DNA from: Chloranthus sessilifolius
Lineage: Eukaryota > Streptophyta > Magnoliopsida > Chloranthales > Chloranthaceae
DNA: 64,000 nt
NCBI GenBank assembly: GCA_021018995.1
Contig: CM037587.1
Location: forward strand, 9,879,366 to 9,943,365
Direction of reading: 5' to 3'
Shown: positions 10,365 through 47,087 of the stretch, one piece after another
How positions within the stretch are numbered: position 1 is the stretch's first letter
Layout: each line of letters begins with the position of its first letter
Program-made: the position numbers and the translations under genes
Notes under the pieces: generated by a model
Told to the model about the DNA's origin: nothing
The model's database searches: none
The model's input: the letters and a program-made list of their open reading frames with translations, nothing else

Positions 10365-10419
10365 CTTTCCAACGGTCTAAGAATTGCCCCAATCAGAGCT
10401 GTGTACATAAAGTTATGGC
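10365..10419 (-). other. Shared 55-bp LTR block (Tat-a copy, inverted)
   Basis: Read on the minus strand it starts GCCATAACTT, has GATTG at positions 26-30, ATTCTTA at 36-42, and ends GTTGGAAAG at 47-55. The same 55-bp frame, without gaps, occurs in the T2 3' LTR, four times in the T3 LTRs, and in the Tat-b LTR. Confidence 0.8.
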
Positions 10420-10471
10420 AGTCCAACCCCGGAGGGCAAAAATATAATTTCAAATGGCCCCGTAGGGATTT

Positions 10472-10540
10472 GGCTCAACTAATAGTTGCGCCAGGCCATT
10501 TCTCCCCAGAAATGGTTTGGCCCAACTAATAGTTACGCCA
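10472..10540. repeat. Palindrome pair C inside the Tat-a LTR
   Basis: Two diverged copies at 10472-10493 and 10519-10540, of the same type as pairs A and B (central CAACTAATAGTT). They lie about 50 bp beyond the shared 55-bp block and about 360 bp before the LTR TATA box, so in U3. Confidence 0.85.
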
Positions 10541-10898
10541 ACATTAAAGTGGACCCCACCTCGGGGAGCCAACTTTCAGGCTACCGTGCTGCATTATTTT
10601 ACTGTGGATATGTCTGGCTTATGAACAGTGATCTCTGGTTTTACCTCGAATTTCGTATCTAGGATTTGATTTGATTGACCACTTGGGTCTTTGGAGTGTG
10701 TTTTGATAGTTCTGTTGCACCCTTTTACACCTTATTTGCAATCTCTTAAGTGACTTAAGGCCCCATCCTGTCATCCACCATTGGAGGACTTTCTCACATG
10801 TTTCAAGGCTCAAAAAAACCTAGGAAGCCTTAGATTTGAGATTACCTAATTGCTAACCCTAATTGGCACTTAAGTGGTCTTCTAACCCACCCATTTTT

Positions 10899-10906
10899 TA
10901 TAAATA
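10899..10906 (+). promoter_or_regulatory. TATA box of the Tat-a LTR
   Basis: TATAAATA followed by GAGCCCCCC lies about 835 bp into the LTR. The Tat-b LTR has TATAAATAG at the matching place (47622-47630), which supports it as the element's promoter. Confidence 0.65.
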
Positions 10907-11626
10907 GAGCCCCCCTCCCCTTGGATTAAAGGTTGAGAAATTTGCTTAAGAGAGAAAGAGCTCAAAGTGAGAAGTTCTTCCTCCCTTTTGTGCACAATTT
11001 TCACATAAATTTCAGAATCTCCCAACCTCATTTCAAGCTTACTCTTGCCTCCAAAACCCTAGTCTAAGTGTGTGCTCCCCCCTAGACTCCTCACTCTACC
11101 TCTTAGCTTTAAGCCTTAGGAGTTAGAATCCTATTCTATACCATACAAAGCCTTTAAGAGCTCATTAAAAGCAAACCACGCAAGGCTCTCCTACGGTACT
11201 ACAAGGGCCCGAGGGCTTCGACTCTCCCCTTTTTTCTCCTATCTCTTTATAGCACTTCTCATCCTTGCATTTGTGCCGTTACGCCGCCAACTTTTCGGTA
11301 AGAGCGGAGGGGCACAAATAGGATTTTAGAGCCCTTTGGGCAAGAAGAGGCTTCTTTTGCTCCTAGCATTTCCCTTTCGTTTTGGCCATAAGTAGAGACC
11401 GCTTCAAGCGGGTTGATCGGGTGCCTAACACCTTCTCAATCGATAACCGAAGCCCCTACCCAAGAGCCTTTAGTGTGGACCGAAATCAGAGTCATATTTT
11501 TAGCACTTTGGTGCTCATAAAAATGATATAGGTATCCCGAGACACCAAAAGCCCCGGGTGGCGACTATGTTTTTGTTAGCAAGCGCATCGTCGCAACGAG
11601 ATCGTCACGAATCCCACAGTTGCACA

Positions 11627-13006
11627 CTCATGTATAATTTGTATGTTTGAATATTTTTGTTCTTTTATGTTATATGTTATATCATACACAGTTATATGTG
11701 ATACTTAATTTTTTTGAATAAATAATATTGTCACTTTTTACGTTTATCATTGGAGAGAGGGACACTGCTGTTTTAACTTTCAAATATGATAAGTATCTAT
11801 TATCTTTCTTGAAACAAAAAGAGAATGCCATCTATCTTCCACAGGTAACAAGGATTTTGAAATTGTTGTTCTTATTTTAGTTTTGTTTGCTGTTTTTAGA
11901 TGATTAGATTGAAAATTTGAAACCCATGTATGTTTTATTGCAGGGAATTAAGTTATACTAAGCTTGCAAATTTGCCTCCTATAATAAGCCTTTGTAAGTT
12001 TTATCCTTTTTTTTTTTTTTTTTTTTTTTCTATCTACTAATTTGATATGGGGACGTAATTTTTGTATTTTTTATTTGAGTTATGTGTAGATCCAAAGTGG
12101 GTAGCTGATAAAATCCAAAGTAGGTAGCTGATAAAACAAAAATCGATCTGGTCTGTTTTCATTTTGAGTGCAATAAATGTCATTGCATTTTCAATGGGTC
12201 CTGATCTTGTAAGTTTCCATATGAAAGCTTTAATGCAAATTGGGAAATGGCCAATCCATTCTACTAAAAAAGCATGGCAATGGTGCAACATCTACGACAG
12301 ATTTTGACAGATTTTGCCTAAATTTCCATATAAGATTTTACTTTGGAACCGGTGTATTCCTTTCATTACGTCTATTGACATAACATCATTTATCTAGAAG
12401 GAGCACATGCAGTTTAACAGTGAGGTTGCCATGTTGGCTTATGATTTGATGTTTCAACCAGAGATGTCAATGGGTCTTGTTAGCCTGCAGCCTGGCCCAG
12501 TTCGAGCCAGGTTCGGGCCAAGTTTCCCGGCCCGGTATTCTCATCCTATCTCATAAATTTTTAAATCAGTTTATCTTAGCGTAGAGGACAAGGAACCAAG
12601 TAGCGAAAAGAATATCACTTTACTCTTATTCATTTATGGTGCTGATTTCTTGAAGATTAAGTCAACTGTGTTGACTCATCGAGTTAATATTTTGTTTCAT
12701 TTGCTTATAGAATTATATGTAAGACAAAAAAAATCTGATCAAATTAATACAAGGGCTAAAAAAGTACATAAGATTTTCGGGACATCGTTGGCTCAGTTGA
12801 CTCAGTGAGTAACACGGGTACTCCAGGGACATTGAAGGTTCGAGTATCACGGACCGAAAAGATTCATTTGCGATCTCTGATTGTGTAGGTTTTTTTATTT
12901 GATAATTGTATCTCTTTATGATCTGTGTAGTGTTTTGAAGCCAAAGATGATCCTCGTGTAAGTGGCAATGGCGTGACGAAGACTCCGAGGAGCAGTCTTT
13001 GTGAAT
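11627..13006. other. Low-coding DNA next to the Tat-a LTR
   Basis: No convincing gene is seen. It has a T23-like run at about 12007-12030 and a GC-rich patch of GGGCC/CCCGG type at about 12490-12540. Short intron-boundary-like sites occur (for example GCAG near 11940), but no coding frame supports them. Confidence 0.4.
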
Positions 13007-13180
13007 CGCCTAGAATACTTTGGTAATGGCACTTTTCTGACTTGACTTTTATAATTTTTGTAAAACTCTAATGTTTGATGATATGAAAATAGACGCCTAG
13101 AATACCTTGGTAATGGGACTTTTCTGGCTTGACTTTTATAATTTTTGTAAAACTCTAATGCTTGATGATATGAAAATGGA
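13007..13180 (+). repeat. Tandem duplication, 2 x 87 bp
   Basis: Units at 13007-13093 and 13094-13180 both begin CGCCTAGAATAC and differ at only a few positions. A simple local duplication; the antisense reading frame across it is an artefact of the repeat. Confidence 0.9.
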
Positions 13181-18975: not shown

Positions 18976-20454
18976 GGTGCTGGTAAGGTCGGGACCGTGA
19001 CCATGGGCGTCCGTCTTCGGGTTGCCTTGTTGGTAGATAAGATTCTGAGATTGACCAGCCAGTTGATCAATTGAGACCATTTATATAGAAACTGCCAAAC
19101 CAATCCAAGGCGGATTTGGTTTGAGCTAAGGTAAGTATGCCGGATCAATAGTAATTGGGCTCGTATGGGCTTGTTCCACAGGCTAGAAATATTGAATCCT
19201 TTTAAGCCCTAGCCACCCCAAGCCCACTGTGACCCCTACCATAGTGTTAACACAAAATAAAAAGGGACAAAAACGTGGGCGAAATTAGAAAAATATCCCT
19301 CCTTTTTAAACGTTATAGCCTATTATTTTAAAATGAAACGATTTAAGCAAAAAGATTTTCACGATTTTTTAAAGCTCAGAAATTTGTGTGATGTAAAATA
19401 TCGAATTGTGATATTACAATTTTATCTTTCTCCTCAAAACCTTCAAACTAATTTTTTTCTTCTCTTTTTTTTTGATAAAACTGTCGGAGTTCTTTTGCGG
19501 TTGGATCCTTAGGGTTTTTAGTGTGATAAATTTTAAATTTGGAGAATAATTTGATTGAATATGTGGACTACTCTGTCTATTGTTTGGGTGAGATCTATTA
19601 CTTCTAACATGTGTTAACTAACCAATCTCACTCCACTATTTCGTAGTAGTACTAATGGAGAGGAGCTTAGTCACCGAAATCGGCAGCGTTTTGAAAAAGT
19701 CATATATCGCTCATAGATTTTTAGGTCCCCGGATACGCATCACGTTTAAGTCACAATTTATTTTTGACTAATCGCCATTTTTTGAAATTTCATGAAATTT
19801 ATGATTAAATCGTGATTAATTTACGATTTTTATAATAAATTGTAACTTTTAAAATATATTTTTTCAAATTTTCATTTTGTATTATATATTTTTATTTTTC
19901 TCCCAATTTTTCCTCAATTACTACTCACGATTCATGGTGTGGTGGCCATCATGGAGGTGGTGATGGTTGTGCATGCCGTCGTGGAGGTGATAGTCGTGGT
20001 GCTGTGTGATGTGGGTAATAAAGATTTGAATGTCTTTGATTTTGATGACTTTTTAATTCCATGTTGTGTTCGAATTAAATTATTTCTATTTTTTTACCAT
20101 AGTAGAGATTTTTTAAATCATTCAAATCGAAGCCTCCCTCCTAATTTTCCAAATAAAGTAGTTATTTTTTTTTTGATAATGTCAAGCAACTTTTTAATCA
20201 AGAGATCCAAAAGGACCCTTATTGAGATAAGTGAAAGAGTTATTTATTATTATTATTATTTTGTGAGGCTCTCCCTCTACTGCTGTCAATTATGAATTTT
20301 ACTTCATGCATTATGCACTTCATATGCATTGACACACTGCTGGACTCTTCTAATAAATCCCTAATCCTAAAAAGTTGGTTCTAGTACCAATCTTCATTTA
20401 TTTTATAAGGTTCATAATCAAAATTAGCATATTAACTTGGATTGTTAAGGGTTG
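18976..20454. other. Region without a recognised gene
   Basis: AT-rich. An open frame at about 19939-20295 begins with Val/His-rich repeats from GTGGTG runs and then AT-rich filler, and shows no family motif. Short dyads with AATCGTGATTAA occur near 19810. I see nothing I can support as a gene. Confidence 0.4.
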
Positions 20455-21222
20455 TGTTGGAAAAATTAGTCCAAATTGCACGAAGAGATATGGACATCCG
20501 ATTCAAGGAATATTATTCTCTTTAAACCAAATTTTGCCCCCACCACTTCAATAAAATGGTCGTCAATAGGTTATCGGCAAAATGATTATATGATATAACG
20601 AGCCGACTGTGTATTCATGTGATAGATTTAGCGAATCTGATTACACTATCATAACATCAAATATTGCGAGAAACTCTGAAATAATCTTTAAAATCGGATG
20701 AAAAGATAGAAAATGCAATAAGTAAAAATGTGGTCTCAGATCCCTTTTATAGAGATTAACAGGTACCAATGTACCGTTTCGTGAAAAGACACAATGGTCA
20801 CAAACGGTTTGAATGGGCACAATGGTCATAAATAAATAAGTTACAAACGGTTTGACTGGATACAACGGTCATAAACAAATTGGTTAAAATTTAAACGTTA
20901 ATAAATCAAACTGATAAAAAATAGTTACACTTTTGCCCAAAAAATTATTTACAAAGGTACCGCACTGTCATGCTACGTAGACGTGCTCGTCCCCATGCCT
21001 GTCTCGTCCTAATCAGGCCTGGCTCAGCACGTGCTCGCGTGTGTGTGACTGATGAGGATTATGGTGGTAGAGACCACACAATTCTGTACCCACTAGGTGA
21101 ACGCTATAAGCCTTGAGCCAAAGCTTCACCATATAACTCAAACTCAAAAATTGGGTTACACGATGTGGGACTATCCACAATCCACAAAGTAAAAATAAAA
21201 AACTTTTTAAAAATATCCAACA
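20455..21222 (-). repeat. 3' LTR of the copia element (768 bp)
   Basis: Bounded by TGTTGGA and TCCAACA inverted ends. On the minus strand, AGTAGGGGAT lies just before it and is the polypurine tract. It matches 43184-43942 over its length with many substitutions. Confidence 0.85.
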
Positions 21223-21744: not shown

Positions 21745-22387
21745 ATTAGGTAGGGTTCTCATCATAAGTGGCTGCTAGGTTTAATGTCTTTAAACCCCTC
21801 CCTATTGATATCTTGTGAATTCCATCTCTTCCAAGGCTTTTAGTAAACAGATTCATCAAGTTTTCTGCAGACCTGACCCCAATTACTGAGATTATTCCAT
21901 CTCTAAGTAATTATTTTACATAACTATGTTTTAGACTAATGCGTCTATTTTTTTCATTATACGTTTGACTATAAGCCTTTGACAGTGCTGCTTCACTATC
22001 ACAATGTATAGAGATTATTGACACTGATTTAATCATAAGTGAAATTTCTATTAGTAAATTCATTAACTATTTTGCTTCTTTTTCACTTGTTGCTAAGTCA
22101 ATGAATTATAATTCCATAATGGAATGCATAATGCAAGTTTGCTTCTTTGAACCCCATGAGATTGCAACTCCTCCAAAATTAAATATCCATATACTAGTGG
22201 ATTTTACTTCTTCCGTATCAAATATCCAACTTGCATCGCTATATCCTTCTAACACATGGGGATATTCAGTAAAATGCAAACCATAATCAATAACACCTTT
22301 TAAATATATAAAAATATGAGAAATTACATTCCAATGAACTGAACTAGGATTACTTGTAGATCTATTTAACTTAGTGAAAATGTAATA
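21745..22387 (-). pseudogene. Copia RNase H and RT C-terminus
   Basis: Minus-strand reading gives STSNPSSVHWNVISHIFIYL, LEGYSDASW and GGVAISWGSKKQT, then after stops HCDSEAALSKAYSQTYNEKN, SLKHSYVK and NLMNLFTKSLGRD. These are the RNase H active-site and C-terminal motifs of plant copia elements. Several stops make it dead. The upstream RT continues at 31903 beyond T2. Confidence 0.85.
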
Positions 22388-23624
22388 TGTAATAGATGCC
22401 CTAGTTTCAACCACACTGTTTGGTCTGGACATAGACCAGGTCTAAAACACGTGCTCCAAAGGACCTCGCAAAGTTCATGTTTAAACTATTTTGCCGAACA
22501 CAAGACACACAAAAGAAAGTGTAACCTTGTATCTGTCGAACACGTAGACATACGTACTCCAAACGTAGAACAGCCTGACACACAAGCAAATCCAGCCCAT
22601 ACATTAACTAAGGTATCTAAGGATTACGTTGGAAATTTCACCATAATCAACATACACTGGACACTTGTGTAATGGATTTACACATAAGCTGAATCCCATA
22701 TATAGATATAAAGTTTATAAGTATAGTAGATTTTACACTAAAGGCCGTCTCTAGATATATTTCTTTAAGTACAGCAAAGTTATATTTAACATTTGTAACA
22801 AATCCCGTTAATAATTAAAATGGCTGCATCCCCCAACTATGTTATCTTAAGTACCATTAGCTATATAGCTGGACTTGGTGTAATAGCTTTACACTCAAGC
22901 AAGCCTTGGTTTGGCTAGTACAAGAGCAAGCTTTGCATGAGATCCTAACCCCTTATTGTCTTTACTACGATACACTCAAATATTTAGTGTTGGCTTTATA
23001 AGGATTAATAGCTTTAAAGAGCTTATAAGCTCCTTGAAGCTCCACTTGACGACACGAACTTGTGAGTCATCGGGTGCTTTCATGCACGCAAGACCCGCTA
23101 GAACACTACAAACAACATCCACTTTCATTTTTGTCAGTTGCAAATTTGAAGGAATTTAGTAGGCATCAGACCTACAAATTTCATAAACCAAAACCCAGAA
23201 TTTGATACACTTCGAAACACGATTTTGAATTCCAAATCATGGATCACACCACGACTCTACACACGTGTCGCGAGAAGTGTCGCAGACTCGCCGACACACG
23301 CTCAACGACATCATATCGACACTACGAGTCCTTCGAAAGGTATGCCATAAACAAATAGAATAGGTTAGGTCAGTGGTTAATTTAGATAAATTATACATTT
23401 GTGGTGTCGATTCACTGAGAACGAATTGGCAACACGAATCACAGTTTGAAATAGGTTCGAAACTCATATGGCTCATAAAAACTACACCGAAATTTTCGCA
23501 TAAAAATGAATAAGAAAATCTAATTTTTGTACACAATATAGATGAAATAGATAAGCTTTATATTTATACCAAAGACCCAGTCAAAGGCTTGAGTAAAAGA
23601 AGTTAAAGTGGAGTAGAAAACACT

Positions 23625-23915
23625 TCGGCAAGCCCAACCTAACAGGCTTGCCGCGATAACCTTATATGGTTGCCGTGATAAGGTGCTCAGGCTTGCCGCG
23701 GCAAGCATTGTGCTCAGACCTTTGGTCTGTATTTTGATCATGAACTCGGATTGACATGATTCTTGATGCGTTGGAAATGGGACAACGAACCATACAACTT
23801 TTATGAAGAAATAAATTTCTGAATCCAACGTTTAAGAGGTCAAAAATTAGTGATAAGTTGTGGCAATATGCTCAGCTGCAAACCTTGTCGCGGCAACCTT
23901 TGTTGCTTGCCGCGG
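23625..23915. repeat. TTGCCGCGGCAA palindrome cluster in the T2 5' LTR
   Basis: At least five full or partial copies. The complete GCTTGCCGCGGCAAGC lies at 23691-23706 and a further TTGCCGCGGCTA at 23907. In the 3' LTR the matching sites (29662-29677 and neighbours) often read TTGCCGTGGCAA, a C-to-T change. Confidence 0.8.
23731..23778 (+). other. Shared LTR block, shortened copy in the T2 5' LTR
   Basis: Same block as at 29708-29762, but several bases are missing near its start; it keeps GAACTCGGATTG, ATGATTCTTGATGCG and TTGGAAA. It lies just after the palindrome cluster. Confidence 0.75.
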
Positions 23916-24932
23916 CTACCTTGTATCTGACGTGCTTGGTGACACCTTTGTCAGGGGTTTATGCTGGGATGACTTGCTGAGTTTGACCATGAGACTTGGG
24001 ACCATAAATGATCCATATTTGGGGTCTATGTTGACCCAATAAACCATTAAAAATACTAAAACTATGACCATATATCCTAAGTATATGGTGCACATAACGC
24101 GCTCATGCCGATGACTTCGTTTGGATGCGTGCAAGCACATGACTGCAAGCAAGTCTCATACGTAACACATAGGCTTGATCTTACGGTAGGGAATTTACTT
24201 TACTAATTTATATTGTGTTTTTCTCACTCTCGTCTAGCTAAGCAAGTTATTACATTGATCATGTAGAAATAGACAAATTGATACGCATATTAGTCATAGT
24301 CATGTATGATACTAAAATAAGTTACTATGAGTTCAATTTACGAAGAAGTAAGGATGAATATTCTAAGTATCAGTTGAGGAATGAAAATACAAGTTCGATT
24401 AATGATAGTGATGATAATAGATATCAGTTTTGATGTGTGTGTGCATGACTATACTCAAGTCAGTTTTGAGTGTATAAATGATAATATAAGTTCAAATTTG
24501 ATATCTGTTGTTGTATAGCTATGCTAGATTCAGGTAGGAAATGAGGATAAGAAGCTTAGTTTTGAATTAGTATGAACATGATAGTGCAGCTTTGCTAAGT
24601 TCAGTGTTGATAAATAGTTAACTCAGTTCGTAAGAATAGTTGGTAGGCATATGCTAATTCAGTTTTTGCTCAAATATGCTAGTTTTCGTGAGGTATAAGC
24701 ATGCAAGTTCAGTTATGCTAATGCAGTTAGATGGAAATGATGATACTATTAGTTTCAATGCATGAATATGAATAGTTATGCTAGTTCAGTTTTGATAGAT
24801 GATTAACAGTTTTGATATATGATTATATGCTAGTCTATCATGATTATACGCACTCTACTCATGATATTCTCGCATACTTGATACCATGCATGATCACGTC
24901 TTAATTCCTTGTACGTGATTGAGGTCTCGATC

Positions 24933-25192
24933 TAAGTGACCCTGCTCACTTAGCTCAGGGGCTTGACCAATCTCATGTCAAGTGACCTTGCTAACATAGC
25001 TCAAGGGTTTGACTTTTTGAACCAAGTGACCCTTCTAACTTAGCTCAGGGGCTTGACTAGTCCTGTATCAAGTGACCTTGCTAACATAGCTCAAAGGTTT
25101 GACCTCTTAAGTTAAGTGACCCTGTTAACCTAGCTCAGGGGCTTGATTATCTCAGTCCAAGTGATCCCGCTAACTCGGGAGCTTACTTTACT
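24933..25192 (+). repeat. Alternating 45-bp minisatellite in the T2 5' LTR
   Basis: Six units begin AAGTGACC/AAGTGATC. Two unit types alternate: one with TTAGCTCAGGGGCTTGA, the other with CATAGCTCAAGGGTTTGAC. The repeat is therefore a dimer of about 90 bp. The same array is in the 3' LTR. Confidence 0.88.
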
Positions 25193-25921
25193 TGTTTCTT
25201 GTTTTTGAACATGTCTTGTTTTCGCATGTTTCCTTGATATTATCTCGCATGATTCCTTGTCAGTACTCGTATTTGGTTAGCATGAATATGTCAGCATTGC
25301 CAGCATGATACAATAATTACATGATTTACTACTTGTTTTGTAATATATTACTAGGCTATATATATAAATGCTAGACTAGACCTAAAATAAGATGACATGT
25401 GCTTCGTTTTATTATGCCTTTAGACAGGAATAAATAATCTAACATATAAATTAGTATTGTAATTATCTTTGCTGAACTTTGATGATAGCTCATCCTACGA
25501 CTTTATGTCTTAGCTGCAGATACTGCTCAAGACCCTGAGCACGAGGCTGTTCCTACCTACCTACCAGCATGAAGAGGACGAAGAGGAAGGTTTTACTGAA
25601 GACTTCTTTCCTTGAGAGGTTTTAGAGAGAGAGAGAGAGATTTATTTTTAAATATTAAACATGTATAAACAGTAGTGTTGTTTAAGATAGCTTACTACTT
25701 CAGGTATAGGTTTCTGTTTATATTCCTGTTCAGTTTGTTGCTTTAGATAAATTAATGAATATCAGTTGTTGCCATATTTCTATGTATCAGAGTTAATTCA
25801 ATTTGCTTTCGCATATGTAATACTTTGTACATAATGCCCTTGTATGACAGGATCATGTTAGGTGATCCAAAGACCCGACCTTTCCCATTTACGAGAAGGG
25901 GAAAAGTCGGGCTGTCACAGG

Positions 25922-25933
25922 TGGTATCAGAGC
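25922..25933 (+). promoter_or_regulatory. T2 primer-binding site (initiator tRNA-Met)
   Basis: TGGTATCAGAGC starts two bases after the 5' LTR. It is complementary to the 3' end of plant initiator tRNA-Met, the primer used by this lineage. Confidence 0.9.
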
Positions 25934-27360: not shown

Positions 27361-27901
27361 GAGTATCGTGTCAGACCACGATCCGTTATATACCTCCCGA
27401 TTCTGGCAGAATTTTCAAGAAGAAATAAGTTCCAAGTTGGGATTCAGTTTTGCATTTCATCCCCAGACCGATGGTCAAACAGAAAGGGTAAATCAAGTAA
27501 CATTTGTATGATAGATTGACACTCACGTATTTATTCAATTATCTCCGACAAAGGGCGTGATGCAATTTAGGAAATGAGGCAAGTTAAGTCCTCGCTATGT
27601 CGGACCATTTCAAGTCTTGGGCAGAGTTAGTGAGGTGGCATATTGAGTTGCTCTACCTCCACACTTAGCCAACATACATGACGTATTTCACGTGTCTATG
27701 ATGAGAAAGTATATCAGAGATCCAACCCATGTGTTGGATTATCAGCCATTGGATCTTTAGGAGTAGCTCAAATTTTGGATCGCAGAGACCAAATCTTGAG
27801 AACAAAATGTATTCAACTCGTATGGAAGAATCACGGTTCACATGAGGCTACCTGGGAGCGCGACTTTGATATTTGCGATCAGTATCCCCATTTATTTACC
27901 T
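27361..27901 (+). pseudogene. T2 integrase C-terminal part and chromodomain-like end
   Basis: Resumes within integrase (YTS-like IYLPILAEF, frame-disturbed FHPQTDGQTERV), then VALPPHLANIHDVFHVSMM, RKYIRDPTHVLDYQPLDL and finally VWKNHGSHEATWERDFDIC with QYPHLF. The last part is the chromodomain-type C-terminus (W-K-H...ATWE) of chromoviruses. Stops and deletions abolish function. Confidence 0.85.
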
Positions 27902-28358
27902 GAGGTAAGCCGTTTATTTTTGTAGAATCAATTATTCCATATGATATAACAAATTTTTGGTATACATATGTCGTTATATATATATCAAAGTACAGAGGTT
28001 GAGGGAAAACAAATTGTCCTCTACCATATATGCCCTGCTAATGCATAGAAATACCACTGTTTAATTTAAAAACAGTAACACTATATCCACAAATTGGGCT
28101 TGAACACTATCTAGTGAGTTAGTTCAATACATTCCCCTCATTAATTTTGTTTGTGCTTACTCTATAGTACCTAGGTATGTGCGTTATAAGGTAAAACAAG
28201 TAACAATATATTAATTTCCTATTGACTTTCGCCTTGTAATGTCGTATGCCTTCAATTATGTATATAAATTATATGAACTCTAATATTATGACAATAATAT
28301 CTCACTTTCTCCATCTTCATTTATTTTCGAGGACGAAAATCCCTTAAGTAGGGGAGAA
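27902..28358 (+). other. T2 3' untranslated region and polypurine tract
   Basis: Non-coding, AT-rich. It ends TTTTCGAGGACGAAAATC, then AGTAGGGGAGAA (28347-28358) directly before the LTR. The GAGGACGAAAAT box is typical of Tekay/Del elements. Confidence 0.75.
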
Positions 28359-29707: not shown

Positions 29708-29762
29708 ATTATAACTTTTGATCCCAAACTCGGATTGTCATGATTCGTAATGCGTTAGAAAG
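29708..29762 (+). other. Shared 55-bp LTR block (T2 3' LTR copy)
   Basis: Starts ATTATAACTT, has ACTCGGATTG at positions 21-30, ATTCGTA at 36-42 and ends GTTAGAAAG. Length and motif spacing equal the T3 and Tat copies. Confidence 0.8.
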
Positions 29763-30915
29763 GGGACAATGAGCCCTACAACTTTCATAAAGGAACCAAT
29801 TTATGAATCCAACTTTTAAGAGGTCAAAAATTGGTGATAAGTTGCGGCAACATGCTCAGCTGTAAAACTTGCAGTGACAACCTATGTTGCTTGCCGTGGT
29901 AACCCTATATCTGACGCGCTTGGTGACACCTCTGTCAGGGGTTTGTGCTGGGATGACTTACTGAGTTTGACCATGAGACTTGGGACCATAAATGGTCCAT
30001 ATTTGGGGTCTATGTTGAGCCAATAAACCATTAAAAATACTAAAACTATGACCATATATCTTAGGTATATGGTGCACATAACGCGCTCATGCCGATGACT
30101 TCGTTTGGATGCGTGCAAGCACATGACTGCAAGCAAGTCTCATACGTAACGCACAGGCTTGATCTTACGGTAGGGAATTTACTTTACTAATTTATATTGT
30201 GTTTTTCTCACTCTCGTCTAGCTAAGCAAGTTATTACATTGATTATATAGAAATAGACAAATTGATACGCATATTAGTCATAGTCATGTATGATACTAAA
30301 ATAAGTTACTATGAGTTCAATTTACGAAGAAGTAAGGATGAATATTCTAAGTATCAGTTGAGGAATGAAAATACAAGTTCGATTAATGATAGTGATGATA
30401 ATAGATATCAGTTTTGATGTGTGTGTGCATGACTATACTCAAGTCAGTTTTGAGTGTATAAATGATAATACAAGTTCGGATTTGATATCTGTTGTTGTAT
30501 AGCTATGCTAGATTCAGGTAGGAAATGAGGATAAGAAGCTCAGTTTTGAATTAGTATAAACATGATAGTGCAACTTTGCTAAGTTCAGTGTTGATAAATA
30601 GTTAACTCAGTTCGTAAGAATAGTTGGTAGGCATATGCTAATTCAGTTTTTGTTCAAATATGCTAGTTTTCGTGAGGTATAAGCATGCAAGTTCAGTTAT
30701 GCTAATGCAGTTAGATGGAAATGATGATACTATCAGTTTCAATGCATGAATATGAATAGTTATGCTAGTTCAGTTTTGATATATGATTAATAGTTTTGAT
30801 ATATGATTATATGCTAGTCTATCATGATTATATGCACTCTACTCATGATGTTCTCACATACCTGATACCATGCATGATCACGTCTTGATTCCTTGTACGT
30901 GGTTGAGGTCTCGAT

Positions 30916-31170
30916 CCAACTGACCCTGCTCACTTAGCTCAGGGGCTTGACCAATCTCATGTCAAGTGACCTTGCTAACATAGCTCAAGGGCTTGACTTT
31001 TTGAACCAAGTGACCCTTCAAACTTAGCTCAGGGGCTTGACTAGTCCTGTATCAAGTGACCTTGCTAACATAGCTCAAAGGTTTGACCTCTTGAGTCAAG
31101 TGACCCTGTTAACCTAGCTTAGGGGCTTGATTATCTCAGTCCAAGTGATCCCGCTAACTCGGGGGCTTAC
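30916..31170 (+). repeat. Alternating 45-bp minisatellite in the T2 3' LTR
   Basis: Same six-unit alternating array as 24933-25192, with a few substitutions and no change in unit number. The array therefore predates this insertion. Confidence 0.88.
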
Positions 31171-31902
31171 TTTGCTTGTTTCTTGTTCTTGAATATGTCT
31201 TGTTTTCGCATGTTTCCTTGATATTATCTCGCATGATTCCTTGTTAGTACTCGTATTTGGTCAGCATGAATATGTCAGCATTGCCAGCATGATACAATAA
31301 TTACATGATTTACTACTTGTTTTGTAATATATTACTAGGCTATATATGTAAATGCTAAACTAGACCTAAAATAAGATGACATGTGCTTCGTTTTATTATG
31401 CCTCTAGATAGGAATGGATAATCTAACATATAAATTAGTATTGTAATTATCTCTGCTGAGCTTTTATGATAGCTCATCCTACGACTTTATGTCTTAGCTG
31501 CAGATACTGCTCAAGACCTTGAGCACGAGGCTGCTCCTACCTACCTACCAGCCTGAAGAGGATGAGGAGGAAGGTTCTGCTGAGGACTTCTTTCCTTGAG
31601 AGGTTTTAGAGAGAGAGATTTATTTTTAAATATTAAACATGTATAAACAGCAGTGTGGTTTAAGATAGCTTACTACTTTAGGTATAGGTTTCTGTTTATA
31701 TTCCTGTTCAGTTTGCTGCTTTAGATAAATTAATGAATATCAGTTGCTGCCATATTTCTTCGCATCAGAGTTAAATCAAATCGCTTCTGCATATGTAATA
31801 ATTTGTACACGATACCCTTGTATGACAGGATCATGTTAGGTGATCCGATAGTGCGACCTTTCTCATTTACGAGAAGGGGAAAAGTCGGGCTGTCATATAA
31901 TA

Positions 31903-34733: not shown

Positions 34734-35529
34734 CAATTTGTAATATCTCAAAAATTTTGACCTTTGAACAGTATACCTCAGTGTGCATGTCCAACTGGTC
34801 ACATACCCGACATTGTGAAATTAATTAAATAAATTATTTTGGGCTAGGTCTTAAGTGAAAAAGGCTGATTTAGATTGTGTGTGGGTCATTAGATGGTTGC
34901 ATGTACACCAAGCTTCGGTGTATTGGCTCCACACCGAGTCCAATTGATAGGTGGGTTGGGTGTATAGGCTCCACACCAAACCAAAGGGTTATTTATAAAA
35001 TAGCTAACACTTCTCTTAGGTGTATTTGTCTCACGTAGAGTCTAGTTCCTTAGATAAGGCTAACACCCAAATGGGTGTATGCGTTTAACAAGGGAACAAG
35101 CCCTTTAAGTAATAAAAGGAAGGCAAAGCTTCCAAGGGAAGCTTAACTGGTTGCAATTTTGGGCTTTCCAGGGTTTCTAAAGAGAGAAAGAAGAGGAAGG
35201 AGCAAGCCCTTGGGTTTTGGTCAATTTCCCCTTGTTTTCTTCTTCTTCTTCTTCGATCAATCACCGCAAGGGAATGCCGATTCGACGTGGCTACGATCAA
35301 ATGGATTGAGAATGCGCTCTTTTGACTCGGGAACCCTAGCTTGGGTGTGAGCACGTGGATAGAGGAACCGATCATTTTAAGGTGAGAAAATTTGATGCTA
35401 AGTTGTGATTAGTATGTAGATTAGACTTTGGTTAGCATGTGGGTGAAAAATTAGAAGAATATGAGTTAGATTTGAAGAAAAATGAGTTGGAAGAAGTTAG
35501 AACCAGAGTTTGGGTGAAAGCTGACGAAA

Positions 35530-35637
35530 CCGTTAGATTAAAATGAAAGCTATTCAATTGAAATAAGTAATCGTTCGATCGAAATAAGTTAGAACCCGAG
35601 TTTGGGTGAAATCTGACGAATCCGTTCGATCGATTTT
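35530..35637. repeat. TTCGATCGAA palindromes in the T3 5' LTR
   Basis: Two intact GTTCGATCG copies and two decayed ones (CGTTAGATTAAA, TATTCAATTGAA). The 3' LTR has the same cluster at 40631-40707 with four copies better preserved. Confidence 0.8.
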
Positions 35638-35670
35638 GTTTGAGCATGTCGACACTGCTTTGATATTTTG

Positions 35671-35725
35671 GCCGTATCTTTCTACTCCGATCTCTAATTG
35701 CCATGATTCTTATGGTGTTGGAAAG
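35671..35725 (+). other. Shared 55-bp LTR block (T3 5' LTR, copy 1)
   Basis: GCCGTATCTT at the start, ACTCCGATCTCTAATTG in the middle, ATTCTTA at positions 36-42, GTTGGAAAG at the end. No gaps against the other copies. Confidence 0.8.
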
Positions 35726-35864
35726 AAGACAGAAATATCTATAACTTTTATTAATTGATAACTTGTGAATCAACCTTTTTAAAGGTTAAAATTGAGTAAG
35801 AAGTTGGGTCAAGTTTCGAGTTAGCATGTTTTGACTGAAGTGCCAAAATTGCTTCTTTATTTTT

Positions 35865-35919
35865 GCCATAACTATTTACTCCGAACTCCGATTTATACAA
35901 TTCTTGAGGAATTGGAAAG
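35865..35919 (+). other. Shared 55-bp LTR block (T3 5' LTR, copy 2)
   Basis: GCCATAACTA at the start, CTCCGAACTCCGATTT in the middle, ATTCTTG at 36-42, ATTGGAAAG at the end. The two T3 copies are 194 bp apart and share flanking similarity, so they arose by an internal duplication. Confidence 0.8.
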
Positions 35920-36539
35920 AGAACAATAATATCTATAACTTTTATGAATTAACAATTTTGTAAATTCAAAGTTTTAATGGTCAAAATTTAGGGGAAAGTT
36001 ACGTCAAATTCTAAATTAGCGCGAATTTGTCTGTTTCCACCTCGTTTTGGGAAGACACCTAAATATGTCTAAAGTATTAATGATTAGAGTTACTCCTTGA
36101 TGAATCATTGTGAACTTGTGATGTAGATCAAGGGCAGTGGCCATCGATAGAACTTTTCTTGGCTTCGCGTAACTTCGAAGGTTAAGGTAGGAGAACTTCA
36201 ATACAAGCATACAAGTTTGACTCTGATTCATAGTTCTTTGATATCATTGAATGCTTTGACGACTTTTGAACTAGAATTTGAAATCTTTTGAATCTAAAAA
36301 TGAATTGAAATCTGACATATGATCTTTAAAACATGAAAATTAAATTCTGACCTTGAATATGAATTTGAACCATAAATATGAAAATTTTGAACTTCGACGC
36401 TAAAATTTGATATTGAACTTGAATATGATCTTTGCACTTGAAATTTGAATCCTTTGAACCATGAAATATGAACTGTAGACTTTGAGTTAGAAATATGAAC
36501 TTGAATTCGAATTCGGAACCTTTGGAGTCTTTTGAACTT

Positions 36540-36920
36540 GTGTGAATGTATGCCCTTGGACCACTTTGGTGGGATTTACGTACACCCTTGAAAATCTTTG
36601 TAAATATGTACACCCTTGGACCGCTTTGGTGGGATATATGTACAACCTTGACCCGCTTTGGCAGGATTTACGTACTCCCTTAGACATCTTTGTATCTATG
36701 TACGCCCTTGGATTGCTCTGGTGGGATTTATGTACACCCTTAGACATCTTTGAATCTTTGTATGGCTTTGACCGCAGTCTCCGTGAAACAAACTATAAGA
36801 CAAGAAAGTTTAAGTGGATCACTATGGGCAGATTATGGGTATCTGTGGACCGCTGTAGGCGGATTATGTGCATCGGTAGGCTGCAATGGGCGGATTATAA
36901 GTACCTTGTGGGCCGCTAGG
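36540..36920 (+). repeat. Minisatellites in the T3 5' LTR
   Basis: First part: irregular units of about 30-60 bp with CCCTTGGACCGCTTTGG and a GGATTTACGTACAC-like step. Second part (36810-36920): units with GTGGACCGC and GGGCGGATTAT. The reading frames across them are by-products. The 3' LTR carries the same arrays at about 41610-41990. Confidence 0.8.
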
Positions 36921-37598
36921 GCGGAATCGAATCAGTAAAACGAAGATAAAACATGTAAGTAAATGAGAATCGGACCCAGTAAACCAAAGACCAGACACGT
37001 AAGTAAGCTACGTAAGAACGTGTAAGAAACGTAAATAACTTATGTAAGACATGTACAGGAATTTAGGTAAGAATGTGTAAGTGAATGTAAATCAACTCGG
37101 TAACCAAGGATAAGAAAATGTCTTTGAAATCAGTTTCTGTTTGATATGAAAATGTTTTCCATTCCGATATGAACATGTATTGGATTTTGCCATTTAATCT
37201 ATGCTTCATTATTATAAGATGTGGAATTGTATTGAGTTTCCTCTACTGAGCTTAGATGTAGCTCACCCTTTGACTATATGTCACAAGTATAATATTTATC
37301 AGGGCAGTGGACTTGTGGATTGAGGACTTGAGGATTGATAAGATTTTCGGGATCGTAGATTTTGGTAAGATGTGGTGTTGTTAGTTATTGTTCATGTTAG
37401 ATGTTTGAATTGGAGATTTAAATTATGCCAAAAGTATTACTTGCTTTGATTTCTGCATGTATGTGGATGTACCAAGTATTCTCTGTATTCGGATTGCGTG
37501 TTGCGATCTGATGATCCGAGTTTTCCTATTGGGTTTAAGTTAGTTGAAAAAAAATATCTCAAAAAAATTCAAGTTGAAAAAATCCGGACTGCCACAGT

Positions 37599-39845: not shown

Positions 39846-42668
39846 TGTAACATCTCAAAATTTTTGACCTTTGAACAGTAAGTCTCGATGTGCGTGCTCG
39901 ACTGGTCTCATACCCGACATTGTGAAATTAATTAAATAAATTATTTTGGGCTAGGTCTTAAGTGAAAAAGGCTGATTTAGATTGTGTGTGGGTCATTAGA
40001 TGATTTCGTGTACACCAAGCTTCGGTGTATCGGCTCCACACCGAGTCCAATTGATAAGTGGGTTGGGTGTATAGGCCCCACACCGAACCAAAGGGTTATT
40101 TATAAAATAGCTAACACCTCGTTTAGGTGTATTTGTCTCATGTGAAGTCTAGTTCCTTAGATAAGGCTAACACTTAAATGGGTGTATGTATTTAACAAGG
40201 GAACAAATCCTTTAAGTAATAAAAGGAAGGCATAGCTTCCAAGGGAAGCTTAATCGGTTGCAATTTTAGGCTTTCTTGGGTTTCTAGAGAGAGAAAGAAG
40301 AGGAAGGAGCAAGCCCTTGGGTTTCAGTCGATTTCTCCTTGTTTTCTTCTTCTTCGATCAATCATCGCAAGGGAATGTCTATTCAATGCGGTTGCGATCA
40401 AATGGCTTGAGAACGAGCTCTTTTGACTCGAGAACCCTAGCTTGGGAGTGAGCACGCGGATAGAGGAGCCGACCATTTTAAGGTGAGAAAATTTGATGCT
40501 AGGTTGTGATTAGTATGTAGATTAGTCTTTTGTTAGCATGTGGGTGAAATATTAGAAGAATATGAGTTAGATTTGAAGAAAAATGAGTTGAAAGAAGTTA
40601 GAACCCGAGTTTGGGTGAAATCTGATAAAACCGTTCGATCGAAATAAAAACTGTTCGATCGAAATAAGTAATCATTCGATCGATCTTGAAACCGTTAGAT
40701 CGATTTTGTTTTAGCATGCCGACACTGCTTTGGTATTTTGACCGTAAATTTCTGTCCCGATCTCTGATTGCCATGATTCTTATGGCGTTGGAAAGAAGGT
40801 AGAAAGTTCTATAACTTTAATGAATTGACAAACTTGTGAATCAACCATTTTAAAGGTAAAAATTGAGTGAGAAATTGGGTCAAGTTTCGAGTTTGTATGT
40901 TTTGACTGAAGTGTCGAAACTGCTTTGATATTTTTGCCATAACTATTTACTCCGAACTCCGATTTACTCGATTATTGAGGCGTTGGAAAGAGAACAACAA
41001 GATCTACAACTTTTATAAATTAATAATTTTTAAATCCAAAGTTTTGATGGTCAAAAGTTAGGGAGAAGTTACATCAAATTTTAAGTTAGCGCAAACTTGT
41101 CTATTTCCACCTCGTTTTGGGAAGACACTTAAATATGTCTAAAGTATTAATGATTAGAGTTAATCATTGATAAATCATTGTGTGCTTGTGATGTAGATCA
41201 AGGGCAGTGGCCATCGATAGGACTTTGCTTGGCTCTGCGTAACTTCAAGGGTTAAGGTAGGAGAACTTCAATACAAACTTACATGTTTGACTCTGATTCA
41301 TAGTTCTTTGATATGATTAAATGCTTTGATGGTCTTTGAACTAGAATTTGAAATCTTTTGAATCTGAAAATGAATTGAAATCCAACATATAATCTTTAAA
41401 ATATGAAAATTGAATTCTGACCTTGAATATGAATTTGTACCATAAATCTGAAAGTTTTAAACTTCGACACTAAAATTTGATATTGAACTTGAATATGATC
41501 TTTGCACTTGAAATTTGATTCCTTTGAACCATGAAATATGAACTGTGGACTTTGATTTAGAAGTCTGAACTTGAATTCGAATTCGAAACCTTTGAAGTCT
41601 TTTTAACTTGCATGAATGCACGCCCTTGGACCGCTTTGGCGGGATTTACGTACACCCTTAAAAATCTTTGTAAATATATACACCCTTGGACCACTTTGGT
41701 GGGATATATGTACGCCCTTGGACCACTTTGGCAGGATTTACGTACTCCCTTGGATATCTTTGTATCTATGTATGCCCTTGGACAGCTCTGGCGAGATTTA
41801 CGTACTCCCTTGGACATCTTTGAATCTATGTACGACTTTGACCGCAGTCTCCGTGAAATAAACTATAAGACAAGAAAATTTAAGTGGACCGCTATGGGCG
41901 GATTATGGGTATTTGTGGACCGCTATGGGCAGATTATTTGCGTCGGTGAGCTGCTATGGGCGGATTATAAGTACCTTGTGGGCCGCTAGGGCAGAATCGA
42001 ATTAGTAAAACCAAGATAAAACATGTAAGTAAATGAGAATCGGACTTAGTAAATCAAAGACTAGACACGTAAGTAAGCTACGTAAGAATGTGTTAGACAT
42101 GTAAGTAAGTTATGTAAGACATGTATAAGAATTTAGGTAAGAATGTATAAGTGAATGTAAACCAACTCAGTAACCAAGGACAAGAAAATGCCTTCGAAAT
42201 CAGTTTCTGTTTGACATGAAAATGTTTTTCATTCCGATATGAACATGTTTTGGATTTTGTCATTTAATCTATGCTTCATTATGATAAGATGTGGAATTAT
42301 ATTGAGTTTTCTCTATTAAGCTTAGGTGTAGCTCACCCTTCGACTATACGTCATAGGTATAATATTTATCAGGACACTAGACTTGTGGATTGAGGACTTG
42401 AGGATTGATAAGATTTTCGGGATTGTAGATTTTGGTAAGATGTGGTGTTGTTAGTTATTGTTCATGCTAGATGTTTGAATTGGAGATTTAAATTATGCCA
42501 CAAGTATTACCTGCTTTGGTTTCTGCATGTATGTGGATGCACTAAGTATTCTCTGTATTTGAATCGTGTGTTGCGACCCGACAGTCCGAGTTTTCCCATT
42601 GGATTTAAGTTAGTTAAAAAAAAAAATATTTCAAAAAAATTCAGGATGGGAAAATTCGGGCTGTCACA
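39846..42668 (+). repeat. T3 3' LTR (2823 bp)
   Basis: Direct repeat of 34739-37596, ending GGGCTGTCACA. Its shared-block copies are at 40741-40795 and 40936-40990, palindromes at 40631-40707, and minisatellites at about 41610-41990. Confidence 0.9.
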
Positions 42669-42673
42669 CGATT

Positions 42674-43056: not shown

Positions 43057-43183
43057 CAGAAAATATAATTTTTGTTGTCACCTTTTGAAGTTCGAACCAT
43101 CGAAACTATCCAACTTATGGATACTGTAGGGAATGAGGGAGTAGTCGAGGCTGTAATATGGGCCATGAAAATTGGTTTAAAAG
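43057..43183 (-). other. Copia leader between 5' LTR and gag
   Basis: Short leader on the minus strand. The sequence next to the LTR (CTTTTAAACCAATTTTCATGG) is not a recognisable initiator tRNA-Met site, so the primer is unknown or the site has decayed. Confidence 0.5.
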
Positions 43184-43942
43184 TGTTGGAAAAATTGCTA
43201 CAGATTATACAAAGAGAGACACAAATTCGGTTTGAGGCACGAAGAATATTATTGTCTTTAAACCAATTTTTGCCCCCACCACTTCAATCAAGTGGTCACC
43301 AACATGTTTCGGCAAAATGGTTTCAGGATACAACGAATCGACTGTATATTTGTGTGATAGATTTGGCTAATCTGATCACGCTACCAGAACACCAAATATT
43401 GTGAGAAACTCTGAAACAATCTTTAAAATCAGATGAAAAGATAGAAAATACAGTAAGTAAAAATGTGGTCTCGTATCCCTTTTATAGAGATCAATAGGTG
43501 TGAATGCACCGTTTCGTGAAAAGACACAACGTTCATAAACGGTTTGAATTGATACAACGGTCATAAACAAATCGGTTACAAACAGTTTGAATGGACACAA
43601 TGGCCATAAATAAATCAGTTAAAAGTTAATAAATCAAACGGATAAAAAACAGTTACACTTTTGCCCAAAAAATTAATTACAAATCACCGCACCGTCACGC
43701 CACGTACACGTGCTCGTGCCCGTCCCGACTCGACCCGTCCCGGCTCGACTCCGTGTGCATGTGTGTGTGACTGACGAGGAGCATGGCGGTGGAAACCACA
43801 AAATTCAGTGCCCCTGGATTGAAGGCTACAAGCCTCGAGCCAAAGCTTAACATATAACCCAAACCCAACAATTGGGTTACACGATGCGGCACTATCACAA
43901 TCCTCAAAGTAAAAACAATATTTTAAAAAAAAAAATCCAACA
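43184..43942 (-). repeat. 5' LTR of the copia element (759 bp)
   Basis: Matches 20455-21222 from TGTTGGAAAAATT to ATCCAACA, with many substitutions and small gaps. Two antisense gag/pol-type frames in it are chance. Confidence 0.85.
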
Positions 43943-44711: not shown

Positions 44712-45112
44712 GGTATGAACTATCATACTATATGGTGCAAAATGTTGGTTAACAAAAAAGAGACAAGAAGCTAGAATGTATGCAGCTGAGATGCATATGA
44801 TAAGATGGATGAGTGGAGTAACAAGAAAGGATAAAAATATAAATGATTATAAAAGGAGAAAATTATGAAATGTCATTTGGTATGTTTTGGATGTATCCAT
44901 CAAGAGAGAAACAGACCACCTATGAAGCAATGAGACGTTACAAGCGTAAGAAAGTAAAGGAAGAGGAAGCCCAATGAGACTTGGAGGGAGGTAGTAAGAA
45001 GGGAAATGAAGGATTGTAGAGTTATATGGTCTTTAGTGCTATATATACGAGTGAAGAAAAAAGACCTGCAAAGCCGACCCCAAATAGATGGGATAAAGCT
45101 ATGATGATGATT
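44712..45112 (+). mobile_element. 3' end of an RTE-type LINE
   Basis: Reads LYGAKCWLTKKRQ, MYAAEMHMIRWMSGVTRKDK, then broken remnants (ESKGRGSP) and an ending ADPK-MG. These are the C-terminal motifs of plant RTE-like non-LTR retrotransposons. The DNA ends in GATGATGAT-like short repeats rather than poly(A), as is usual for RTE. 5'-truncated and full of stops. Confidence 0.75.
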
Positions 45113-45379
45113 TTTATTTAATACACTAGTTTTCATAATTTATTTTTATTTTTCTTAATTATTAAGAAATTTAGAATGGTTTATCATAGAAATTATCTTC
45201 GTTTTTATCACCGTGAAGCCATAAATTACTTAATTAGAACAAGGATACAAAGGATTAAGAAGCACAACGAAATGCTAAGCCAAAAAATAGCAAACAAACA
45301 AAAAAAACAAAACTATACAAAGTAGCCAACCAGTGGCTAAACATGAAGAAGTGAGAGACTGAAACGTTGAGGAAAAGGA

Positions 45380-45770
45380 ACTTGCTCGCACTCCATAAGT
45401 ATCTTGAAAGTTGATCTAGCCATAGGATGGAGATGGCAGGCTCCATCCGCAGAGTTCCTCTTTAATTGTACCACAAATAAATTTGGCCGCTTGGAATTTC
45501 TTGTCAAATATTGGTCTATTGTGTTCATTCTAATTTTCCCATAACATCACAATCGAGAAAGCTTTCCAGAGAATTTCCACATTTCCTTTGAAGATATTCT
45601 TAGGTGAACCAACCAAGATCAAGACACAAGACTTACGTAGACACTCATAAACCACAAAATAGCTTCCACATATATCCCAGAAATGTCAGGTAAACTTACA
45701 TCTCATAAAAAGAGTTCCACTGACACTTCCTCTACTCTACAAAACTTGCACTTCTCACTCCAAGGGGAAG
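45380..45770 (-). pseudogene. Antisense L1-type LINE zinc-binding RT tail
   Basis: Minus-strand frames give KCKFCRVEEVSVELF (C-x2-C...E of a zf-RVT domain), then after a frameshift MRCKFT and HFWDICGSYF, and later LWKAFSIVMLWEN, NEHNRPIFDKKFQAAKFICG and TIKEELCGWSL. This pattern follows the RT in plant L1 elements. Two stops and one frameshift. It abuts the gypsy protease fragment head to head. Confidence 0.6.
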
Positions 45771-45775
45771 TCCAT

Positions 45776-46030
45776 TCCTCTTTTATGCAGTTACACACGC
45801 ATAAGGGCTCTACCCCATGCCTCCTCCCGTTGTGTACCTTAGACATTAAAGACTACTCCCTAGAAGCTGACCTCTTTTTGCTGAACATGAGAGACTTCGA
45901 CGTCATCCTCATAATGGATTGGCTTTCATTTCATCATGTCACTCTTAATTGTTATGATAAAACTTTAACCTTGAAAATCCTTGGTCGACCTAAAACATTT
46001 ATGCCATTGATTCAAAGAACCCTCGTCCTT
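45776..46030 (+). pseudogene. Isolated Ty3/gypsy protease fragment
   Basis: DYSLEADLFLLNMRDFDVIL, then MDWLSFHHVTLNCYDKTLTL and KILGRPKTF. This is the C-terminal half of an RVP_2-type aspartic protease; the catalytic D-S/T-G part is missing upstream. No LTR is attached, so it is a truncated remnant. Confidence 0.75.
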
Positions 46031-46758
46031 GCAACATGTCTTTGTTGTCGCTTCTAACCTTGTACAGAAGGAATCCGAAATTATGATCGATAGAGTCCCT
46101 ATAATTAGAGAGTTTCCGAATTGACTTGATACCTAGAACGAATCCCATATCACAACTGTTGGACGCACTTTTTCTAGGTCCCTTTTAGGTCCTAGAATAA
46201 GTGGCAAATCGCTCCTGAGTGAACTCTGTTTGCAATGGTTGACAAAAAGTGATAAATAATAAAAGGGGGAGTTTAAGTGCACTTGAAGAAAAAAGTTGTT
46301 AGTAATAAGCAAATTCTAAATAGAGTATACCAGGTTTTTGTGTGATCTCTATCTACCGATATTTATCGACGCTGTAAAACGTCATTGATCACCCGAGGAT
46401 ATGGTGCTGGTATGGGTTGGACTCCTATTCTAAACGTTGGCTTGCTGACTTTAGCAGTTATGGGTTGCCTAAGGTTTAACTAGTTTGGTTTCCTGCTCCT
46501 ATTGGGACCTATCTAAGAAAGGAGGTTGTGGCCCGCTATGCTAGGAAAGATCGGCCCCCTTCCTGGGTACCCTCCGTAAGCTCCCTCGGGCAAATCAGTG
46601 AGGCAATGACAATTTTATAAATATCGAGAAAGGTTGGGGACCTAATTGGCACTAGGCTAAGAATTTTAGTAGGGGCTTCCTAGGAGATGGATCTAAGGCT
46701 AAAATTTTCTCCCTTCAATGCTCTTTCGAGAATTGAGGCAAGTGGGATAGTTCCACTT
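46031..46758. other. Region without a recognised gene
   Basis: Probably unidentified retroelement debris. I see no coding motif or repeat boundary in it. Confidence 0.35.
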
Positions 46759-47032
46759 TATAGACACCCAAATTTGGCCCAAGGCACGATCGACACGTAC
46801 TTCAAGAAAAGCATACCCTCGAGCTTTCAAAAGTATTTTCCAAGCTCTTAGAAATCATCTCAAAACCTTTAGGAATCATCCCAAACCCTTAGGAATCAAC
46901 TCGAACCCTTAAAACCCTTCCCGGACCATTAGAAAGCCCAACCAGAATAGTAGTTGGAAAGATGAGTGCCAAAGTTTATATATAACTTTTTAGGAGTTGG
47001 GGCATATACCATTGGAAAGTAAAGGTTCTCAG

Positions 47033-47087
47033 CTTTCCAACGAGCTAAGAATCGCCTGATTTCGAGTTGTATATCAAAAGTTATGGT
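47033..47087 (-). other. Shared 55-bp LTR block (Tat-b copy, inverted)
   Basis: On the minus strand: ACCATAACTT start, ACTCGAAATC at 21-30, ATTCTTA at 36-42, GTTGGAAAG end. Same length and spacing as the Tat-a, T2 and T3 copies. Confidence 0.8.

Follow-up and report, generated by a model that had tools for sequence, protein, structure and literature searches.

Of all retrotransposon regions, the long terminal repeats (LTRs) are regarded as the least conserved, and they are classified together with the pol genes of their elements. Motif searches across LTRs with profile models noted conserved U3 features beyond the promoter elements, and for plant Metaviridae a model could not be built owing to variation in LTR length (PMC3601003); a conserved block in such LTRs would thus have escaped it, which makes a gap in knowledge plausible. 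A machine-learning study likewise sought features common to plant LTRs and reports LTR ends, the TATA box and known factor sites, the accessible part of its text making no mention of the block described below (PMC11656987). Sirevirus RM boxes and associated conserved motifs are repeated, conserved non-coding LTR motifs located upstream of the promoter region and proposed to be regulatory (PMC2829016). Grass centromeric CR5/CR6 elements carry LTRs in which pieces of two families were joined, and these recombinants spread (PMC4079200). The present analysis concerns a window (the whole stretch of 64,000 nt) of the genome of Chloranthus sessilifolius (assembly of 2.17 Gb), where a machine reading of the sequence alone, hereafter the preliminary description, had noticed a 55-bp block shared by LTRs of different Gypsy lineages. 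We read this block, with a probability slightly above one half (about 0.52), as a portable, orientation-indifferent, enhancer-like module of U3 that was exchanged between lineages. A description of it was not found in the open-access literature, searched for the block words and for the idea, with subscription papers and supplements outside the search.

The block in the window and in the genome

The seven 55-bp copies given in the preliminary description were found at the coordinates and on the strands claimed for them; they align without gaps and share 33-49 of 55 letters in pairwise comparison. The plus-strand copies are located in the 3′ LTR of element T2 (29708-29762), in the 5′ LTR of element T3 (35671-35725 and, 194 bp beyond, 35865-35919) and in the 3′ LTR of T3 (40741-40795 and, 195 bp beyond, 40936-40990), while the minus-strand copies are located in the LTRs of Tat-a (10365-10419) and Tat-b (47033-47087). 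A shortened plus-strand copy in the 5′ LTR of T2 was recovered by profile at 23732-23777 (model columns 9-54). The opposite polarity relative to the element also held: the block is in sense in T2 and T3 and in antisense in both Tat elements, at 305-359 bp from the LTR start in Tat-a and, in Tat-b, at 278-332 bp counted from the first base of the region treated as LTR. One part of the preliminary description fell, since the looser 78-bp version proposed for the LTR of element T1 (55422-55499) scored 3.9 bits over part of its length, which is below the best shuffled score and hence background.

The main profile, built from the seven window copies and 30 genome copies, gave 34.5-53.4 bits for the eight window copies, and its best scores were 3.3 bits in the reversed window and 4.5 bits in the dinucleotide-shuffled window. 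Because this profile is partly circular as a test on the window, lineage-split profiles were trained on one lineage and run against the other. The profile of the T2/T3 and 30 genome copies, without Tat, detected both window Tat copies (E = 2.6e-8 and 1.0e-7), as did the profile of the five T2/T3 copies alone (E = 4.1e-6 and 5.2e-4), and the profile of five Tat copies alone detected all six T2/T3 copies (E = 8.8e-5 to 0.023). T2/T3 and Tat have the same majority letter in 42 of 55 columns; in 20,000 letter shuffles of one majority sequence, agreement averaged 14.5 columns and never exceeded 28. Homology exceeds 55 bp, reaching about +80 to +140 in most pairs of chromovirus-type families. Rfam gave no match anywhere in the window.

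Genome-wide abundance was determined by word counts, with the reversed pattern as control, and by profile scores, with reversed and shuffled sequence as controls. A 21-letter stretch of the block, at up to two mismatches, occurred 5353+5431 times (control 0+0), and GATTCTT with CGTTGGAAAG at any gap from 0 to 14 occurred 6292+6424 times (12,716; control 1+0). The gap between these two words was 4 in 100 of 100 places among the matches listed, which for this and every other 100-place count are the first in contig order, related copies included; at this constant gap, the spacer (columns 42-45) took 30 different tetramers. The pair CATAACTT and GATTCTT, at any gap from 15 to 35, occurred 5582+5858 times (11,440) against 65+78 (143) for the control, with a gap of 24 in 98 of the 100 listed matches and single cases of 23 and 25. 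A Tat-specific form extending into the flank occurred 366+360 times (control 0+0), and its gap was 10 in 99 of 100 listed places. In addition, in 20 randomly drawn stretches (200 kb) profile scores exceeded 10 bits twice, and a third match reached 9.6 bits; all three matches are in Tat-type elements, whereas the same sample reversed and shuffled gave top scores of 7.7 and 8.3 bits. The preliminary description thus stood when compared with the background frequency in control sequence on the genome scale, as word counts were far above those of the reversed patterns. The block is real and not local to the window.

Two further places in the genome (G000:C1:1676784 and C1:4290993) show the same anchors at a gap of 24 with a very different middle, and perhaps represent further LTR families. 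In the Tat-form copies, the last block word and its flank read TTGGAAAG...CTTTCCAA, with centres 21 bp apart, or about two DNA turns; both arms were required by the search pattern, the Tat-specific one above whose gap was constant in 99 of the 100 places listed. Outside plants, an 18-base pattern matched one stretch in viral contigs against three for its reversal, the one examined sharing nothing else with the block, and a 21-base pattern had no match in prokaryote genome contigs. Triticeae satellites and Populus repeats, followed up from literature matches to block words, gave partial matches: a Thinopyrum repeat scored 8.0 bits, a value equalled or exceeded by 4 of 1000 composition-matched random sequences, and a Populus repeat 7.2 bits, equalled or exceeded by at least 1 of 1000 random sequences. 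These were not counted, because they had been found by searching for those very words.

Lineages, primer classes and polarity

T2 and T3 both lie on the plus strand. The 5′ LTR of T2 (22387-25917) is followed by a primer-binding site of the initiator methionine (iMet) type at 25922-25933, and its 3′ LTR spans 28358-31895; the 5′ LTR of T3 (34739-37596) precedes a site of the same type, at 37598, that has one mismatch, and its 3′ LTR spans 39846-42668. T2 retains pieces of protease, reverse transcriptase, integrase and chromodomain protein, all similar to those of T1, in which Pfam Chromo was recognised. A tblastn search with the T1 chromodomain protein found pieces in T2 (27515-27900) and in the genome loci L007 and L017, while T3 retains a T1-like gag piece only. 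A gag search matched a single protein, from melon, at 30% identity. Because of these T1-like pieces and the iMet-type sites, T2 and T3 are classed from their sequence as chromoviruses; Tekay is the label of the preliminary description, the features found here being those of chromoviruses.

Tat-b lies on the plus strand, its 5′ LTR (46761-48331) being followed by a primer-binding site at 48334-48351 that we take to be of the Arg type; none of the Tat-b open reading frames tried had a recognised domain. Tat-a is also placed on the plus strand by the similarity of its LTR to that of Tat-b, from which the approximate edges of the Tat-a LTR (10066-11598) were set. A pol piece at 139-843, upstream of this LTR, contains RVT_3, presumably a second RNase H (aRH), and Integrase_H2C2 (integrase zinc domain). 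Loci L032 and L034 are grouped with Tat-a and Tat-b; L032 has matching pol pieces and an Arg-type primer site. An antisense open reading frame at 6769-7563 is PMD-like at 33 bits, under the cut-off of 34.9. A non-Met primer and an antisense extra open reading frame, such as PMD in Ogre, are among the published criteria for Tat, and 57% of Ogre elements carry PMD (PMC6317226). Beside this reading frame, a tandem array of units of about 46 bp (7666-8089) lies between the Tat-a pol piece and the LTR; arrays of such kind have been reported for Retand elements.

Thirty genome loci were selected by an exact 21-letter match, so that those columns are uninformative within this set. With the block region masked, flank similarity divided them into six groups of 22, 4, 1, 1, 1, and 1 loci, and in block-collinear alignments among the loci position +9 was covered in practically all pairs, −141 in 12% and +384 in 6%. 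The loci L019, L029, and L030 resemble T3. The group of four, F4 (L007, L017, L018, and L020), has an LTR start preceded by a purine run, and in L007 and L017 chromodomain pieces are located just upstream of the LTR on the same strand; an iMet-type primer site was not seen within the 3-kb loci of this group. F4 is classed on these features as a chromovirus with the block in sense.

In the group of 22, F22, the LTR edge is located 327 bp past the block start, and 7 of the 22 loci share sequence beyond this edge. There the opposite strand reads a G-rich purine tract and then the LTR start, an exact pattern for the tract matching four of those seven loci. Because of this edge and reading, the block is taken to be antisense in F22; its distance from the LTR start, about 272-327 bp, is close to that in Tat (278-359 bp). 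The resemblance of F22 blocks to those of T3 had suggested a chromovirus-like family, an assignment overturned by the LTR edges and the primers. From its Asp primer F22 is probably Athila, and a tRNA-Asp primer is described for Diaspora and the Calypso group (PMC1142308). Within the window, a minus-strand element at 52371-52734 shows the G-rich tract of F22, with its LTR starting near 52716; at the place expected for an F22-type block (52371-52425), the only trace is a 3.2-bit remnant (52398-52411), perhaps of a decayed block, perhaps a chance match. Another minus-strand stretch (L041:7293-3044) reads an F22-like G-rich tract, an LTR-like stretch and then gag-like open reading frames, and two elements may adjoin there.

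Genome-wide, Asp-type primer sites with at most one mismatch occurred 6169+6016 times and Arg-type sites 1971+1934 times, the control being 0 in both cases. Blocks and primers were then crossed on contig 1 among listed places only (143 blocks, from the lists of the 21-letter stretch and of the GATTCTT/CGTTGGAAAG pair, 100 Asp, and 100 Arg sites). Within 3 kb, seven blocks were found on the 5′ side of an Asp primer, compared to 0.76 pairs expected by chance. All seven lie on the strand opposite to the primer; the distance is 1495-1601 bp for six of them and 419 bp for the seventh. A range of 12 kb gave 20 block/Asp pairs, 17 on opposite strands and 3 on the same strand. The F22 locus L026 is among the seven blocks within 3 kb, and L027, which has the purine tract, is located 8452 bp on the other side of an Asp primer, as expected of a 3′ LTR. 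None of the 143 listed contig-1 blocks formed a pair with an Arg primer within 3 kb. The crossing of Tat-form blocks, which used the 16 of 45 listed contig-1 places within reach of the Arg list, put four blocks on the 5′ side of an Arg primer less than 3 kb away; their distances are 1236-1356 bp, and all four lie on the opposite strand. Taken together, the block occurs in LTRs of three primer classes, in sense with iMet (T2 and T3, joined by the chromovirus F4) and in antisense with Arg (Tat) and Asp (F22). According to a published survey, tRNA-Met is the primer of most chromoviruses and is not used by non-chromoviruses, which employ Arg and Asp among others (PMC6317226), and on this basis the block occurs on both sides of the chromovirus divide.

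Further repeats were noted beside these elements. Four block copies follow one another on one strand at steps of 8.2-8.3 kb (G000:C1:9237509-9262330), with an Asp primer between them, probably as a tandem of LTR-sharing elements. The T1 region contains arrays of the palindromic word TCGATTAATCGA and its variants at a spacing of about 21 bp (54838-55307 and 57968-58712), and a plus-strand repeat pair of 80% identity is located at 20454-21222 and 43183-43942, part of which also matches locus L011.

A segment shared between lineages

Comparison of the window LTRs at E 0.01 showed the block as an island. Between T2 and T3, the block and its downstream flank aligned over 118-127 bp; one stretch of 61-65 bp followed further on, and a single pair also aligned over 19 bp where the LTR ends. 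Between the 3′ LTR of T3 and Tat-a, the sole alignment was the block itself, 54 bp and inverted (E 0.004), and the remaining five comparisons of T2/T3 with Tat LTRs gave no alignment at this threshold. Between Tat-a and Tat-b, the block formed an 81-bp island of 79% identity, flanked by two diverged alignable stretches.

In every one of the 88 pairs formed between the two larger groups of genome loci, F4 and F22, one shared segment surrounds the block (median extent −52 to +208; 259 bp; 81%), and one other alignment of at least 60 bp was found in the whole set of comparisons. Identity between F4 and F22 was 0.73-0.94 in windows inside this segment and 0.425 at +209 to +240, thus marking a sharp right edge, and the two families carry the segment in opposite LTR polarity. 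In columns 1-34, F4-F22 identity (0.778) was about that within F22 (0.781), compared to 0.51-0.59 between Tat and the others. The stretch that F22 has in common with T2, T3, and the single families runs from roughly −20 to +80..+140; of the 22 F22 loci, 13 could be aligned with Tat-a (over 1-72) and 11 with Tat-b (over 2-59). These data suggest that the shared segment very probably crossed between lineages. As to the direction of the exchange, F4 nests among the F22 rows in a tree, but F22 as a single clade was not rejected (p 0.072). Of the explanations offered in the preliminary description, exchange or capture is therefore borne out by the sharply bounded segment in opposite polarity, whereas strong constraint appears to hold at depth only, in the words kept at fixed spacing between T2/T3 and Tat, and is weak within F22.

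Such exchange might by itself account for the block. LTR segments may have moved between lineages on one or a few occasions, through template switching or ectopic recombination, leaving a functionless remnant that still aligns. This agrees with the weak extra conservation of the block within F22 and with documented LTR recombination between related families (PMC4079200), and also with the finding that, after insertion, T3 block copies drift like the remaining LTR, the within-element pairs sharing 47 and 49 of 55 letters and whole T3 LTRs 88.9%. However, family pairings of different depth centre on one core with the same spacing, and this core is found again in three primer classes, with comparable positions in Tat and F22; a passive remnant gives no reason for the recurrent core or for its tandem duplication, and we consider it a rather unlikely explanation. 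A small mobile element, MITE-like (miniature inverted-repeat) or SINE-like (short interspersed), that inserts into LTRs would fit both orientations in unrelated LTRs and the sharp edges of the F4/F22 segment, but the ends of the segment differ by pairing (−52 to +208, about −15 to +125, and 1 to 59 or 72). Neither fixed ends nor, by eye, terminal inverted repeats were seen, which makes such an element improbable. Slightly less probable still is an element acting at the RNA level, as a small-RNA target or a transcript structure: the last Tat word and its flank form an 8-bp inverted repeat whose spacing is constant in 99 of the 100 listed places, with arms set by the pattern itself, whereas the strands are opposite in different lineages, the spacer letters vary within the 21-base unit, and the inverted repeat was not seen by eye in the T2/T3 copies. 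Convergence on the same host-factor sites is barely credible even though each anchor is a short word that, by its length, could be recognised by a factor, because the gap-free agreement of 42 of 55 majority letters and the 259 bp common to F4 and F22 make common descent of the piece far simpler.

Regulatory reading and known systems

The reading of the block as an exchanged enhancer-like module has a probability near one half because its function is inferred. According to this proposal, the block would form the central part of a portable cis-regulatory unit in the predicted U3 of the LTRs. Recognition by host DNA-binding factors would take place on the double helix, at several words whose spacing is fixed, and the module might act distally and irrespective of its orientation to increase transcription of the element. 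It has very probably been exchanged or captured between lineages with inversion of its polarity, between the chromoviruses T2, T3, and F4 on one side and Tat and the Asp-primer family F22 on the other, perhaps by co-packaging with template switching or by DNA recombination between nested copies. Both orientations occur in nature, and the block is distal to predicted TATA boxes in Tat and T2: the TATA-like box is predicted at 10899-10905 in Tat-a and at 47622-47628 in Tat-b, both on the plus strand and, respectively, 480-534 and 535-589 bp downstream of the block, and in T2 the block is located about 695 or 1580 bp upstream of TATA-like candidates. The duplication seen in T3 is also present in L019, at the same distance of 194-195 bp, and three neighbouring pairs among the 100 listed CATAACTT/GATTCTT places are 215 bp apart. 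The opposite polarity and distal position, together with words that keep their spacing while the spacers vary, suggest a module read by protein on double-stranded DNA, much as an enhancer is; in particular, since the spacer letters vary at a constant gap of 4, protein contacts would fit better than base pairing.

Several results weigh against this reading. A TATA-like box was not found downstream of the blocks in the T3 5′ LTR by simple pattern, and helical phasing of the anchors gave no signal (p 0.82). Within F22, conservation was 0.80 and 0.76 in the block windows compared to 0.57-0.79 in the other LTR windows, and the best-kept window (71-85; 0.88) lies outside the block. The fixed length of the block is partly due to common descent. 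Crossing with iMet primers gave three pairs within 3.5 kb, two on the same and one on the opposite strand, compared to 2.4 by chance; as this crossing did not itself show the sense orientation, the orientation in chromoviruses rests on T2, T3, and F4. In the F4 locus L018, the upstream domain pieces are on the other strand; L018 and L017 are 96% alike and 11.6 kb apart, and are for this reason read as two LTRs of one element beside a neighbour. As for the factor, a mitosis-type MYB site (core AACGG, other strand) was considered as a candidate motif; its deciding letter was C in 37 of 100 listed copies and so is not fixed, and the candidate was rejected.

Similar phrases may also occur in the LTRs of other plants. 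On a wider and more doubtful view, separate Gypsy lineages might share a pool of regulatory cassettes, with the module passing between chromoviruses and non-chromoviruses within a genome, being old enough to have counterparts in other angiosperms and having helped the receiving families to reach thousands of copies; LTRs would then be mosaics independent of pol. If true, a countable module that crosses the chromovirus divide in inverted polarity would mean that control regions have a separate history. The block would then offer a concrete sequence for identifying the host factors behind the great abundance of some plant elements, and whether lineages trade promoters would become testable in any plant genome. 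There is also a practical warning, as LTR similarity can mislead repeat classification.

Compared to known systems, the complex elements of Triticeae illustrate a possible route, in which two elements are joined by template switching during reverse transcription; whole parents were fused there into large elements (PMC1950507), whereas here a short module stands inside the LTR. The families joined in CR5/CR6 are related and belong to one chromovirus clade (PMC4079200), whereas the block spans chromoviruses and non-chromoviruses in opposite polarity. The RM boxes belong to one genus of Ty1/copia and have a CGG-CCG core and CpG islands, and the accessible part of that work does not report sharing across superfamily branches or opposite polarity (PMC2829016), both of which are features of the block in C. 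sessilifolius.

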